Shown: piece by piece, positions 4,205 through 33,096 of the stretch
Position numbering within the stretch: the first letter of the stretch is position 1
Layout: each line of letters begins with the position of its first letter
From: Methylotenera sp.
Lineage (GTDB): Bacteria > Pseudomonadota > Gammaproteobacteria > Burkholderiales > Methylophilaceae
Direction of reading: 5' to 3'
Assembly (NCBI GenBank): GCA_017880905.1
Contig: JADGRO010000042.1
Span: 1 to 55,204 of the forward strand
DNA length: 55,204 nt
Position numbers and translations under genes: made by a program
Notes under the pieces: generated by a model
Told to the model about the DNA's origin: nothing
What the model saw: the letters and a program-made list of their open reading frames with translations, nothing else
Databases searched by the model: none

Positions 4205-5752
4205 CTATACTTCTGTAACTTCTTCCGCGTTCTCTTGAGAATCAACCAAATTCAAATCCATTTGCGTACTGGCATTGGCGGATTTGTGTGCCCTATTGGC
4301 ATCGCCACGTGCAGCTTCAATACGATTTAAATAGGCGGCATCTACATCTCCGGTTACATATTTACCATCAAAACAGGAACAATCAAAACTTTTAATGGTG
4401 GGATTGCTTAATTTAATATCATGTACCAGTGAATCTAGGTCTTGGTAAATCAGTGCATCGGCGCCAATTTCTTTGCAGATTTCATCATCGCTACGACCAG
4501 TGGCTAATAGTTCATCGCGGCTTGGCATATCGATGCCATACACATTGGGAAAGCGCACCGGCGGTGCGGCTGAGGCAAAATATACTTTATTAGCACCCGC
4601 ATCGCGCGCCATTTGCACAATTTGTTGCGATGTGGTGCCGCGCACGATGGAATCATCTACTAACAGCACATTTTTGCCTTTAAACTCTATGCCAATCGGA
4701 TTGAGTTTTTGTCGGACAGATTTTTTGCGCATGGCTTGACCTGGCATGATGAAGGTACGGCCGATGTAACGATTTTTAATAAAGCCTTCGCGATAATCTA
4801 AGCCCAGCGAGATGCCCACTTGCAGCGCGCTTGGACGGCTGGTGTCAGGGATGGGAATCACTACATCAATTTTGAGATGTGACCATTCGCGTTTGATTTT
4901 CTCAGCTAGGCTAATGCCCATGTCTAAACGTGTTTGGTACACCGAAACACCATCAATCACAGAATCTGGTCTAGCTAAATAAACATACTCAAAAATGCAT
5001 GGATTTAATTTAGCGTTTTCGGCACATTGACGGCTAAAGAAATTGCCTTCCATATCAATAAAAATAGCTTCACCTGGCGCTACATCGCGGATTAATTTAA
5101 AACCCAGCACATCCAGCGCCACGCTCTCAGATGCCACGATATATTCAGTACCTTTATCGGTATCCAGCTTGCCAATCACCAAGGGGCGTATGCCATTAGG
5201 ATCACGAAACGCCAACAAACCAAAATTGGCAATCATCGCGACCACCGCATATGCGCCTTTGCAGCGTCTATGCACGCCTGCAACCGCGTCAAATGCCATA
5301 TCGGTATTCAATACTGCATTTTTTGAGGTTTTTTCTATTTCGTGCGCCAGTACGTTTAACAGCACTTCGGAATCTGAACTGGTATTAATGTGACGCAAAT
5401 CTTGACGGAACATTTCCGACTTTAATTGCTCAGAATTGGTTAAATTACCGTTATGTCCAAGCACAATGCCAAACGGCGAATTAACGTAAAAAGGTTGCGC
5501 TTCAGCCGCGCTGGAAGAGCCTGCCGTGGGGTAGCGCACATGGCCAATGCCTACATTGCCAATCAAGCTGCGCATATGGCGAGTTTGGAATACATCTTTC
5601 ACTAAGCCATTGTTTTTATGCATGAAAAACGTATTCCCATCGCATGTCACAATGCCCGCGGCATCTTGTCCGCGATGCTGCAGCACCAGCAAACCATCGT
5701 ACAGTAGTTGGTTTACCGGGTTTTTACCAACGATGCCTAAAATTCCACACAT
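4205..5752 (-). CDS. purF: Amidophosphoribosyltransferase
   Basis: Catalyses the first committed step of purine synthesis: glutamine plus PRPP to 5-phosphoribosylamine. The protein is 515 residues, normal for the proteobacterial type without propeptide. It starts MCGILGIVG, so Cys2 is the free N-terminal nucleophile of the class II glutaminase domain after Met removal. The glutaminase domain ([27 protein letters not shown]) covers about residues 1-230. The phosphoribosyltransferase domain carries the PRPP loop [18 protein letters not shown] at about 365-382. It is downstream of cvpA by 40 bp, the usual cvpA-purF pairing. Confidence 0.97.
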
Positions 5753-29725: not shown

Positions 29726-30541
29726 TTAATCAGCAATTTTAATCGATTTAAATTCAGGTGGTACAGGTGGATAAGCCAGTTTCAAGCCCTTAAGTGCGTT
29801 TAAAAGCAACTTAGAGATCAACAGGTTACGATTGGTTTTAGAGTCAGCCGGCACCACGTACCAAGGCGCATAGGTGGTGCTGGTTGCACTTATGGCGTTC
29901 TCGTAAGCAATCATGTACTTAGGCCACAAATCCCGCTCTTTTAGGTCATTCGGGTTAAATTTCCAAGTTTTAGTCGGGTCGTTCAGCCTATCTTGCAGCC
30001 GTATTTTTTGTTCAGCTTTTGAAATATGCAAATAGCATTTTACAATCACCGTGCCTGTTTCTGTGAGCATACGCTCAAACTCGTTTATTTGCGCATAGCG
30101 GCGCTTACATTCTGCATCATCTATCCAATCGTGCACTTTCACAATCAGCACATCTTCATAATGGCTACGATTAAAAATCACAATCTCGCCCTTTTGCGGC
30201 ACTTGTTGGTGCGCACGCCACAAATAATCGTGCGCTAACTCATCTTCGGTTGGACCTCTAAAATTGGCCAAACGAATACCCAGCGGATCGCACGCACTAA
30301 ATACATGCCGCACTGTGCCATCCTTACCGCTGGCATCCATGCCTTGCAAAATCAGCAAAATTTTGTGCTTATTTTGCGCATATAAAATATCCTGCAAGGT
30401 GTTTATTTCAATCGCCAGCTTTTCAAGCTCTAGCGCATTTTGCTCTTTAGTACCAGAACGCTCAGACTTATCGCTAGACTTGATTGATTTGAATGAAAAA
30501 CTGGATTTTGGCTTAACAAGGTATTGATCTAAATTGGCCAT
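29726..30541 (-). CDS. Polyphosphate kinase 2 family protein
   Basis: A 271-residue P-loop phosphotransferase that moves phosphate between polyphosphate and nucleotides. Walker A GMDASGKDG at 67-75, the FRGPTEDELAHDYLWR block, Walker B FNRSHYED at 123-130, and the lid-region arginines near RLQDRLNDPTKTWKFNPNDL. It is close in length to single-domain PPK2 enzymes that phosphorylate AMP or ADP; the sequence alone does not settle the class. The gene borders the integron cassette region, and its 5' end is the left boundary of the accessory island. Confidence 0.9.
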   Translation of the reverse strand: MANLDQYLVKPKSSFSFKSIKSSDKSERSGTKEQNALELEKLAIEINTLQDILYAQNKHKILLILQGMDASGKDGTVRHVFSACDPLGIRLANFRGPTEDELAHDYLWRAHQQVPQKGEIVIFNRSHYEDVLIVKVHDWIDDAECKRRYAQINEFERMLTETGTVIVKCYLHISKAEQKIRLQDRLNDPTKTWKFNPNDLKERDLWPKYMIAYENAISATSTTYAPWYVVPADSKTNRNLLISKLLLNALKGLKLAYPPVPPEFKSIKIAD

Positions 30542-30592
30542 GATTCATCTTTCTAACAATAATGCTAATTTAACACATAAATTTACAGCGAG

Positions 30593-30734
30593 CATGCGGC
30601 TTGCGCCCTCACGTAATTCAATCTATTCTACGCATATCTTGTATTATTTCGATACTGACCCCTTTAATTTCAAAACTAGCTTTAGTGAATTAGACAAAGT
30701 GATAAGTGAATATGAGCCTGATAATCAACCCTAA
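30593..30734 (+). pseudogene. 3' remnant of a gene-cassette ORF in front of attC-1
   Basis: A plus-strand frame ends NFKTSFSELDKVISEYEPD-NQP, with its TAA inside the left core site of attC-1, which is how cassette genes typically end. The last 35 or so codons look protein-like. The upstream part runs into the start of the ppk2 gene on the other strand and has no ribosome site. I read this as the end of a cassette gene whose 5' part was lost at the island boundary. The protein family is not recognisable. Confidence 0.45.
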
Positions 30735-30788
30735 CCCATCATTCAAGCGGGACGCGCTAAAGCGCGCCCCTTCCTTCAGACGTTAGAG
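30729..30788 (+). other. attC recombination site 1 (60 bp)
   Basis: Left core CCCTAAC (30729-30735) and right core GTTAGAG (30782-30788) are inverted, 60 bp end to end, the size of the classical 59-base element. Between them ATTCAAGC and CTTCAGAC mark the inner boxes, and GGGACGCGCT (30749-30758) pairs with AGCGCGCCCC (30761-30770) with one mismatch and a 2-base loop. The next cassette ORF starts 8 bp after the right core. Confidence 0.85.
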
Positions 30789-30795
30789 CTAAATC

Positions 30796-31338
30796 ATGTC
30801 CAATACCACTGTCGTCCCTCCTCGACCAATTCAATTCCAAAAAGCGATGGTTTTCATTGACGGTACGAATCTTTTCCACCGGCTTGCCGGGGCAAAGTTA
30901 CGACTAAATTCCATTCCTGGACTTTACCAACACGTTGCACAAGGCCGCCAAATAGTGCGAGCCTATCTATACACCTCGGCTCCCCACTACGAGAAAGCAG
31001 AGCAAGTCCACGGCAAAGATGTTTTCAAAGATGTCCGCGTTGTATTGGGAGATGCCATTCCGCGTTCTGGCGGCAACTTCAAAGAGAAGGGCGTGGATGC
31101 ATTGCTTGTCGCAGACCTCATCTACCATGCAGCAGCGAAAAATTACGACTATGCTATTTTGATTAGTACCGACCAAGACTTCGCAAGAGCGCTAAAACGT
31201 GTAGAGGATTTTGGCTGTCGAACAGCCGATATCTCCATAGGCGCTCGAGCCCCTGACCTATTGCGCCAGTCCTGTGACGACCTGTTCGAAATTGATGACA
31301 AAACACTTATCGAAAAAGGTTGGGCGTCACAGCTCTAA
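30796..31338 (+). CDS. NYN-domain (LabA/DUF88-like) putative ribonuclease, cassette gene
   Basis: A 180-residue protein of the PIN-like NYN fold. The acidic metal-binding set is complete: D22 in MVFIDGTNLFHRL, D101 in KGVDALLVADL, and D126/D128 in ISTDQDFARAL. Most proteins with this set are metal-dependent RNases or RNA-processing enzymes. The ATG lies 8 bp after the attC-1 core and the TAA is inside attC-2, so this is a self-contained cassette. No clear Shine-Dalgarno is present. A role in RNA decay, phage defence or toxin activity is possible but is inference. Confidence 0.85.
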   Translation: MSNTTVVPPRPIQFQKAMVFIDGTNLFHRLAGAKLRLNSIPGLYQHVAQGRQIVRAYLYTSAPHYEKAEQVHGKDVFKDVRVVLGDAIPRSGGNFKEKGVDALLVADLIYHAAAKNYDYAILISTDQDFARALKRVEDFGCRTADISIGARAPDLLRQSCDDLFEIDDKTLIEKGWASQL

Positions 31339-31418
31339 CATGGCAGGCGAGAGGATCGCCAAAAGCTGCGCTTTTGGTTCCCTCGCTACGCTCGGCGCCC
31401 CTCACTTCTACGTTAGGC
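31333..31418 (+). other. attC recombination site 2 (86 bp)
   Basis: Left core CTCTAAC (31333-31339, containing the TAA of the NYN gene) and right core GTTAGGC (31412-31418) are inverted. The centre holds the perfect stem CCAAAAGC (31359-31366) and GCTTTTGG (31370-31377) around TGC, flanked by GAGAGG and CCCTC. The size is within the attC range. Confidence 0.8.
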
Positions 31419-31464
31419 GTATGCGGCACCGCCTTTAAATGCCACAACAAAAGGAGACCATCAC

Positions 31465-31770
31465 ATGAAAATGTTACTTACAGTCGAATTCCCACTTGAG
31501 CCTTTCAATTCGCTCGTCAGAAGCGGAAAGGCGGGTGAGATCATTGGGCGTATCCTCGAAACAATCAAGCCGGAGACGGCCTACTTCATGGAGCAAGACG
31601 GAAAACGCGGCGGAATCTTCGTGATTAACGTACAAACCTCGTCGGATGTGCCTTCCTTTGCAGAGCCCTTCTTTCTCAACTTTCAGGCCAGTTGTAAATT
31701 TCGCATTCTGATGAGCCCGGAGGACTTACAAAAGTCTGGCTTGGATGAACTCGGCAAAAAGTGGGGGTGA
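31465..31770 (+). CDS. Small cassette-encoded protein of unknown function (101 aa)
   Basis: The ATG follows a strong AAAGGAG with 8 bases spacing. The product starts MKMLLTVEFPLEPFNSLVR and ends KSGLDELGKKWG. Its pattern of two strand-helix-strand units (with GGIFVINVQ) suggests a small alpha/beta ferredoxin-like barrel. Similar proteins in environmental genomes are sometimes labelled 'panthothenate synthetase', which I consider unsupported. The stop lies 5 bp before the third attC left core, so it is the gene of cassette 2. Function unknown. Confidence 0.75.
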   Translation: MKMLLTVEFPLEPFNSLVRSGKAGEIIGRILETIKPETAYFMEQDGKRGGIFVINVQTSSDVPSFAEPFFLNFQASCKFRILMSPEDLQKSGLDELGKKWG

Positions 31771-31775
31771 AATTC

Positions 31776-31800
31776 GCCTAACCCTGTGCTCAAGTGGGAA
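31776..31800 (+). other. Half attC site (left part only)
   Basis: GCCTAAC (31776-31782) followed by CCTGTGCTCAAG is the left half of a typical attC (core plus inner box). I find no matching right half (TTGAGC...GTTAGGC) before the DUF2141 gene or in the 130 bp after it. The site was probably cut by the event that joined the array to the following DNA. Confidence 0.6.
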
Positions 31801-31814
31801 TTGTGAGGAAGATC

Positions 31815-32333
31815 ATGAATGAGTCAACCATTTGGAGGCCTGCAGTGGCCTCCACAGTCAAGAATCGGGGGATGCGGATCCCCATAGGAGTTCAATGCAT
31901 AGCATTGTGTGCAGCGCTGGTGTTTGCAGTCCGTCCCGCCATCACCTTTGCCCAATCACCATGCCCCGGAATTCATGTGCAGGTTCTGGACATTAGAAAC
32001 AGCACGGGAACCGTAGCTTGCGCGCTTTTCGAATCGCCGGAGGGGTTTCCTTATAACTATCTGCGCTTCGCAACCAATATTATGGTAATAAAAATTCGTG
32101 CTACGCAGGCACGTTGCGACTTTGAAGACATCCCGCCGGGCACGTATGCGCTTGCCATTATTCATGATGAAAATATGAACGGCAAACTTGACGCTAACTT
32201 GCTGGGGATTCCAAAGGAAGGCTACGGTTTTTCAAACGATGTAAAAGTGGTACTCGGCGCACCTTCGTTCCATGCCGCCAGCTTCCCATACGACGGGCAA
32301 AACCTGGATATGACGATCAGCTTGCATTACTGA
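31815..32333 (+). CDS. Exported DUF2141 family protein
   Basis: From the ATG at 31815 (GAGGAAG four bases upstream) the protein has a long basic N-region, a hydrophobic signal segment (MRIPIGVQCIALCAALVFAV) and a probable cleavage after TFAQS. The mature part is a DUF2141 beta-sandwich with CALFESPEGFP, FEDIPPGTYALAIIHDENMN-GKLD and GYGFSNDVKVVLGAPSF. The family is periplasmic or surface-exposed with unknown activity. The frame also extends to a GTG at 31794. Its base composition looks more GC-rich than the flanking core genes, consistent with arrival along with the cassette array. It has no attC of its own. Confidence 0.85.
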   Translation: MNESTIWRPAVASTVKNRGMRIPIGVQCIALCAALVFAVRPAITFAQSPCPGIHVQVLDIRNSTGTVACALFESPEGFPYNYLRFATNIMVIKIRATQARCDFEDIPPGTYALAIIHDENMNGKLDANLLGIPKEGYGFSNDVKVVLGAPSFHAASFPYDGQNLDMTISLHY

Positions 32334-32466
32334 GTGCTGGTTGCTTGTATGGTGCCGCTACTATTGGTAAAAAATCCTGTTTATTCAAGCCCTCCCCGCC
32401 GCGATTGGGCTTATTCTTTTGCTGATGTAAATTGCTTGAAATTTCAATTGGTTTTAAACTAGTAGC

Positions 32467-33096
32467 ATGAAAACCACCTTTATTTTATCTTCCGCGCTCG
32501 CCATACACGCCGCCATTGTTGCACATGAGGCCGATATCGAATCGCTAGACCGCGCCATTGGCGATGGCGACCATTACATCAATATCAAACGTGCCAGTGA
32601 AGTAATCGCAGGCATGTATAACGAGCTTGTGCCTTTACCCCCAGATGAAGTGTTGCAAAAAATAGGTACCAAGCTGTTAAGCAGTATTGGCGGGGCTTCT
32701 GGCGTGCTATTTGCAAGTTTTTTTATGGAAATGGCAAAAGTAGCTAAAATAAATGGCACTAATAATAAGCTTGAAATCGCCGCTGCTTTTGCCGCAGGCG
32801 TGCAGGCTATTGTGCAGCGCGGCAAAGCAACTGTCGGCGAAAAAACCATGCTGGATGTGTTAATCCCGGTTTCAACGACATTTACACTCTCCGCCGCTGC
32901 TGGCAAAACTACAGCAGAAATCTGCCAGGCGCTTAAAGACGCTGCTGATATAGGTTTAGAATCTACCCGCGCCATGATTGCTACAAAAGGCCGTGCAGTG
33001 GGCTTGGGCGAGCGCGGCATTGGCCATTTAGACCCAGGTGCAAAAAGTTGCCAGGTGATGATTCACGCGGTATGTAACTTGATTTTGAAAGACTAA
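32467..33096 (+). CDS. dhaL: Dihydroxyacetone kinase subunit DhaL
   Basis: ADP-binding subunit of dihydroxyacetone kinase. 209 residues. The nucleotide/Mg-binding aspartates lie in LDRAIGDGDHYINIKR, and other family blocks are SIGGASGVLFASFFMEMA and GEKTMLDVL. In PTS-type systems DhaL holds ADP permanently and is rephosphorylated by DhaM. Neither DhaM nor other PTS genes are seen here. It precedes dhaK by 21 bp; the order L-K is the reverse of the E. coli operon. Confidence 0.93.
   Translation: MKTTFILSSALAIHAAIVAHEADIESLDRAIGDGDHYINIKRASEVIAGMYNELVPLPPDEVLQKIGTKLLSSIGGASGVLFASFFMEMAKVAKINGTNNKLEIAAAFAAGVQAIVQRGKATVGEKTMLDVLIPVSTTFTLSAAAGKTTAEICQALKDAADIGLESTRAMIATKGRAVGLGERGIGHLDPGAKSCQVMIHAVCNLILKD

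Follow-up and report, generated by a model that had tools for sequence, protein, structure and literature searches.

The window, a stretch of 55,204 bp that constitutes an entire contig (C17) of a Methylotenera sp. genome (G000; 1.93 Mb in 54 contigs, 92% complete), carries a short run of integron gene cassettes between ppk2 and dhaL. The left flank, ppk2, encodes a polyphosphate kinase 2 (positions 29726–30541, minus strand; Pfam PPK2, 1.4e-74), and the right flank, dhaL, encodes a protein with a DAK2 domain (32467–33096, plus strand; Pfam Dak2, 2.2e-47). All features described below lie between these two genes, on the plus strand. From left to right, they are the ppk2 leader, a fossil of a long attC site, the 3′ remnant of a cassette reading frame, attC1, a nuclease gene, attC2, a 101-residue open reading frame (ORF), the left half of attC3, a gene for a DUF2141 protein, and the tail of a truncated gene. 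The order HK, ppk2, array, dhaL, dhaK is unbroken here and agrees with that of congeners, and the array is internal to the contig, the nearer contig end being 24 kb away. Rfam at its gathering thresholds gives no match within the window. An earlier note, made from the letters of this stretch, had described the interval as an integrase-less cassette array with two complete attC-like sites, the left half of a third, and reading-frame stops in or next to the left cores. The analysis bears out each of these elements.

attC1 (30729–30788) and attC2 (31333–31418, 86 nt) are both complete and stand 605 bp apart. attC1 is bounded by the R″ box CCCTAAC (30729–30735) and the R′ box GTTAGAG (30782–30788), and attC2 by CTCTAAC (31333–31339) and GTTAGGC (31412–31418). 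The third site, attC3, is present only as a left half (31776 to ~31799), with the R″ box GCCTAAC at 31776–31782 and a sequence that is attC-like as far as ~31799; it is recognised by alignment to a complete site in locus L129, and the covariance model described below gives no match to it. With the recombination point within attC taken to be G^TT, the core positions delimit cassette 1 as the 630 bp from attC1 to attC2 (30783–31412) and cassette 2 as 31413–31799, the latter being cut within its own attC. The stop codons lie in or just before the left cores: the TAA of the upstream frame (30732–30734) and that of the nuclease gene (31336–31338) lie inside the R″ boxes of attC1 and attC2, respectively, and the TGA of the 101-residue ORF (31768–31770) is 5 nt upstream of the R″ box of attC3. 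A perfect 15-nt inverted repeat (31487–31501 and 31788–31802) joins the start of this ORF and the broken attC3 half. It extends three bases beyond the end of the attC3 homology, the ORF itself is not inverted, and the repeat may be due to chance.

The sites were scored with a covariance model built from 25 aligned attC sites in the arrays of relatives from the same family, with no window sequence among them; the model structure comprises the core, an inner stem and two extrahelical positions. A scan of all 55,204 bases on both strands, with the full model and the filters off, gives 12 matches at E ≤ 10, the E-values being rough. attC1 scores 64.6 bits (E 7e-15), attC2 scores 31.5 bits (E 4e-6), and the other ten matches score 15.1 bits or less. 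The covariance check that the earlier note had proposed thus returns both complete sites. attC1 is 85–95% identical in DNA sequence to many attC sites of the family (among the matches listed for 187 family genomes). As to the specificity of the model, matches at E ≤ 1e-4 occur in 101 of the 187 family genomes, and the small-genome genus g2 is not represented among these 101.

The bare motif of TAAC…CGTTA plus a stem is not significant, with four plus-strand sites in the window against a mean of 1.2 and a maximum of 5 in 60 dinucleotide shuffles. For attC1 as a single strand, most shuffles fold less well (7 of 200 equal it). The fold of attC2 is unremarkable (31 of 200 shuffles equal it, and its minimum-energy fold leaves the R boxes unpaired), and every one of the 200 shuffles folds better than the attC3 stretch. 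It is therefore the covariance scores and the homologous arrays, and not the motif count or the folding, that carry the case for attC. Inverted core boxes and a conserved folded centre are both recovered by the model, the fold of attC2 taken alone being unexceptional. At the level of sequence, the two complete predicted attC sites are confirmed as real.

Cassette 1 carries a gene of 180 codons (30796–31338), the predicted product of which is a recognisable NYN-domain (PIN-like) nuclease. The Pfam NYN model matches above its cut-off (9.7e-17), residues D22, D101, D126 and D128 are invariant in all eight aligned NYN sequences, and the protein matches a single solved relative, 2qip (3.7e-6), which is of unknown function. 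Such acidic residues are catalytic in PIN/NYN nucleases. A combined pattern and tblastn search of 84,980 species genomes retrieves eight relatives, seven with 42–64% identity, from proteobacteria, a cyanobacterium and an acidobacterium, and an archaeal one with 24%. The best relative, 59% identical, is found in a betaproteobacterial metagenome-assembled genome (locus L097), where the stop codon of the gene likewise falls within the R″ box of the attC that follows and the array has eight attC matches; L097 contains 84–90 nt sites similar to attC2. It is the sole locus with attC among the eight fetched, the model finding none in the other seven. At the Gilvimarinus locus (L099), core-like sequences are visible by eye only, and the model finds no attC there. 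Across 369 genomes sampled from the class, the NYN match that ranks next has just 30% identity. No relatives of the NYN protein are found in plasmid records, and the viral collections contain no relative of either cassette protein.

Cassette 2 carries the 101-residue ORF (31465–31770), which is recognised by its homologues and has no Pfam match. Its product is a widespread small protein that is annotated as ‘panthothenate synthetase’ on some plasmids. Positions 31395–31799 of the window match positions 5006–5410 of L129 with 90% identity over 405 bp, both cassette boundaries included. L129 comes from a genome of another family (G514), in which this cassette stands in an array of eight attC matches on that strand and the attC that follows it is complete. 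The ORF and the beginning of the attC3 left half are also present in two further genomes (G208 and G356); beyond this point the sequences diverge, and the regions retrieved around the ORF there contain no attC match. In comparisons with G514, G208 and G356, the ORF has dN of 0.05–0.06 and dS of 0.21–0.70 (dS is saturated for the pair with G039). Since dN is far below dS, the ORF has been under purifying selection, not necessarily in G000. A single-sequence fold of the protein, with a mean pLDDT of 55.7, was set aside.

An ORF with its own attC that recurs elsewhere as a cassette is thus found twice, cassette 2 recurring in L129 and the NYN gene in L097. The earlier note had named conservation of the two ORFs as ordinary genes in all relatives as an outcome that would speak against a cassette array. 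Among the matches listed for the 187 family genomes, only G039 matches the 101-residue ORF and none matches the NYN protein. Its expectation that the cassettes encode unusual accessory genes holds in part, since the NYN-domain nuclease can be recognised as such and the small protein of cassette 2 is widespread.

Both ends of the array are worn. On the left, the fossil (30596–30651) corresponds to the inner part of a 165-nt attC of G163 (L087 10508–10672, minus strand), with 86% identity over 56 nt, and to related stretches in G162 and G168, with 83–85%. The long attC of G163 has 19-nt arms that are perfectly complementary and a branched centre; the arms of the fossil and both of its core boxes are absent from the window. 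In G162 and G168, centres related to that of the G163 site are located close to attC sites. The fossil is followed by the 3′ remnant of a cassette reading frame (30652–30734), an open frame with its stop in the R″ box of attC1. Its 50-residue translation has weak matches only in the 187 family genomes (best other E 0.03), and its identification as a known protein was rejected because the matches in G162, G163 and G168 are attC fossil DNA read as protein.

On the right, the attC3 half is followed by a foreign gene for a DUF2141 protein (31827–32333; Pfam DUF2141, 1.5e-32). It is 65% identical to a gene that adjoins IS66 on an Azotobacter chroococcum plasmid, identities in the 15 other family genomes with a match are 29–43%, and it may or may not be a cassette. 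Next comes the frameshifted 3′ tail (32343–32433) of a gene that we take to be DUF1304-like, identified by alignment to the full gene that precedes dhaL in G169. About the last 30 codons are left in the window, and, as only this tail is kept, the deletion would have ended there. G169 is the closest fetched congener as judged by a NarL-like protein (97.6% identical to that of the window), and it has a degenerate attC (34 bits) directly after ppk2. In G166, a 30-nt left half of an attC lies in the spacer between ppk2 and dhaL. Comparison of this junction among relatives, as the earlier note had suggested, also turns up an empty site: in G173, 288 bp separate ppk2 from dhaL, and this spacer has neither an attC match nor an ORF of 70 residues or more.

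The integron-integrase family gives nothing above the cut-off in the G000 assembly. The best score is 82 bits of the required 265 and belongs to Xer-like recombinases, and below-cut-off signals, of the kind that Xer recombinases should produce in this search, also come from each of the 14 control genomes. The intI gene of a complete integron is thus not found in this 92% complete genome, and because the array lies inside the contig, the missing gene is not explained by a contig end. No attI is recognised by eye in 30542–30728, and promoter-like sites are near their chance number (5 against 2.9). A 31-nt match of 94% identity between window positions 30549–30578 and the intI–ppk2 junction of G171 was considered as an intI tail beside ppk2 and rejected. 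The same AATTTAACACA stretch precedes ppk2 in G173, G164, G165 and G167, also where ppk2 has no adjoining intI, so it is a ppk2 leader and not an intI remnant. The scan of the whole genome finds seven further attC sites without an integrase, on contigs C8, C48, C50 and C53 (L123–L126), with pairs on C8 and C48. Next to the C8 pair is an ORF that, by eye, begins like chorismate synthase. Clusters of attC sites that lack an integron-integrase are known as CALINs (PMC9024848, PMC8618304 and PMC12444791), and the present locus has at least two attC sites close together and no intI beside the array or above the cut-off in the assembly.

Relatives carry an integrase in the same interval. In the family, 68 of 187 genomes have an integrase match at E ≤ 1e-60, and in the genus, four of 15 genomes have intI (G163, G164, G165 and G171). 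In G171, intI adjoins ppk2 and a single contig carries the array onwards as far as dhaL. The same adjacency is seen in G165, where intI lies at the contig end and an attC before dhaL is found on a second contig. In G164, intI and an array lie between HK and ppk2, and in G163, intI adjoins HK at the end of a short contig. By eye, two small ORFs located between HK and the split intI of G164 (L067 4744–5438) resemble a Doc/antitoxin pair. Beyond the genus, intI is the neighbour of ppk2 in G046 and of HK in G050, G053 and G054, and in G067 an array leads from intI to dhaL. Altogether, HK, ppk2 or dhaL stands beside the integrase or its array in nine of the 48 intI genomes with examined flanks, which is a minimum because for roughly half of these genomes the flanks seen were just 1.5 kb per side. 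In the other 39, most with only a 1.5-kb flank, the integrase was not seen by these genes, and the remaining intI genomes may well have other seats.

Given that congeners hold an integrase in the same interval, the array is probably what decay has left of a resident integron, rather than a curiosity standing alone. We assign a probability of about 0.75 to the reading that it is the relic of a resident chromosomal integron from which intI and attI are gone and whose two ends are being eroded, i.e. a CALIN. In attC sites, the substrate that IntI recombines is the bottom strand in its folded form. The ancestor would have had intI, attI and a cassette array beside ppk2, and its cassettes would have been gained singly through IntI. 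In the lineage of the window, intI and attI would then have been deleted, the first attC would have shrunk to a fragment, and at the far end a deletion would have cut the third attC and the DUF1304-like gene before dhaL. Left over would be two complete attC sites around an intact NYN-nuclease cassette, plus a second cassette with half an attC. We infer that the array descends from an integron of the congener type; its cassettes would now be fixed unless an IntI enters from outside.

Some results count against the relic reading. No intI or attI remnant is found, and G172, G173 and G167 have no attC match in the interval. The 39 examined intI genomes in which the integrase was not seen by HK, ppk2 or dhaL, mostly within 1.5-kb flanks, point the same way. 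A common origin of the IntI proteins of the genus was considered and rejected, as, on a 34-row tree, the genus label must change three times; the rooting of that tree is not reliable, given the great length of its outgroup row. The four IntI do not form one clade, so either the seat may have been refilled or intI replaced, and this counts against strict descent of the array from a single ancestral intI.

PMC8618304 lists three ways in which CALINs arise: cassettes may be inserted in trans, intI may be lost, or the array may be rearranged. The interval shared with congeners speaks for loss of intI, while the absence of an intI or attI remnant, together with the seven other attC sites, leaves some probability to insertion in trans. 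By that route, an IntI encoded elsewhere or present transiently would have put single cassettes into the ppk2–dhaL spacer, and the lineage would never have had a local intI. The attC sites on four other contigs of G000 agree with such off-target insertion; however, the array occupies the very interval in which all four intI-bearing congeners have intI, which makes this origin unlikely. Rearrangement would have separated the array from its intI, which would now lie in the unassembled 8% of the genome. The completeness of 92% and the 54 contigs leave room for this, but the local gene order is contiguous and matches that of congeners, so that the local seat at least is without intI, and we consider such a history quite improbable. 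Chance hairpins, or an attC-like repeat family of another kind, would suit the frequency of the bare motif in shuffles and the ordinary fold of attC2, but this explanation is already refuted for attC1 by its score (64.6 bits, and 31.5 for attC2, against 15.1 for the next match) and for attC2 by the cassette boundaries, which recur in homologous cassettes of other arrays.

The relic reading places the locus among known systems. Methylobacillus flagellatus KT belongs, we believe, to the same family. Its integron is, like the present one, that of a betaproteobacterial methylotroph with small cassettes, and, unlike the array in the window, it is described with intI and with other cassettes; frequent intI pseudogenes are also reported (PMC2426708). 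In Xanthomonas, a sedentary chromosomal integron is located at ilvD and its intI is often inactivated (PMC12444791). The Xanthomonas case and the present one have in common a recurrent seat by a housekeeping gene, loss of intI in some lineages with cassettes left behind, and CALINs elsewhere in the genome. Unlike at ilvD, the seat here is HK–ppk2–dhaL, the genus has several IntI lineages, and intI is found on either side of ppk2. The array resembles CALINs in having at least two attC sites, no integrase nearby, few cassettes and a chromosomal location. Nothing basic differs, apart from the facts that the seat in congeners holds intI and that both array ends are truncated. Degraded chromosomal integrons and CALINs are well described (PMC9024848 and PMC12444791). 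The relic array is of a well-known kind, to which it adds, modestly, a seat that integrons occupy in several genera and a nuclease cassette that is still intact. Among the papers listed in a literature search on integrons with Methylotenera or Methylophilaceae, none on this locus was seen.

As a relic, the array would be a clear case of a chromosomal integron in decay, with intact congeners, a decayed sister, empty sites and the relic itself all in one interval, which lets the loss of the integrase and the fixation of the last cassettes be traced. A more tentative and rather doubtful extension is that HK–ppk2–dhaL may be a standing integron seat of the family, much as ilvD is in Xanthomonas, that has repeatedly been filled and lost by unrelated IntI lineages, with the NYN cassette kept after the latest loss as useful, possibly against phages. 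About a tenth of the tested Vibrio cholerae cassettes are reported to be anti-phage (PMC12409362, a review), and in the light of these the small intact nuclease cassette is offered for testing. The PADLOC candidate HEC-09 has a weak partial match to the NYN protein (6e-8, over 47 residues).
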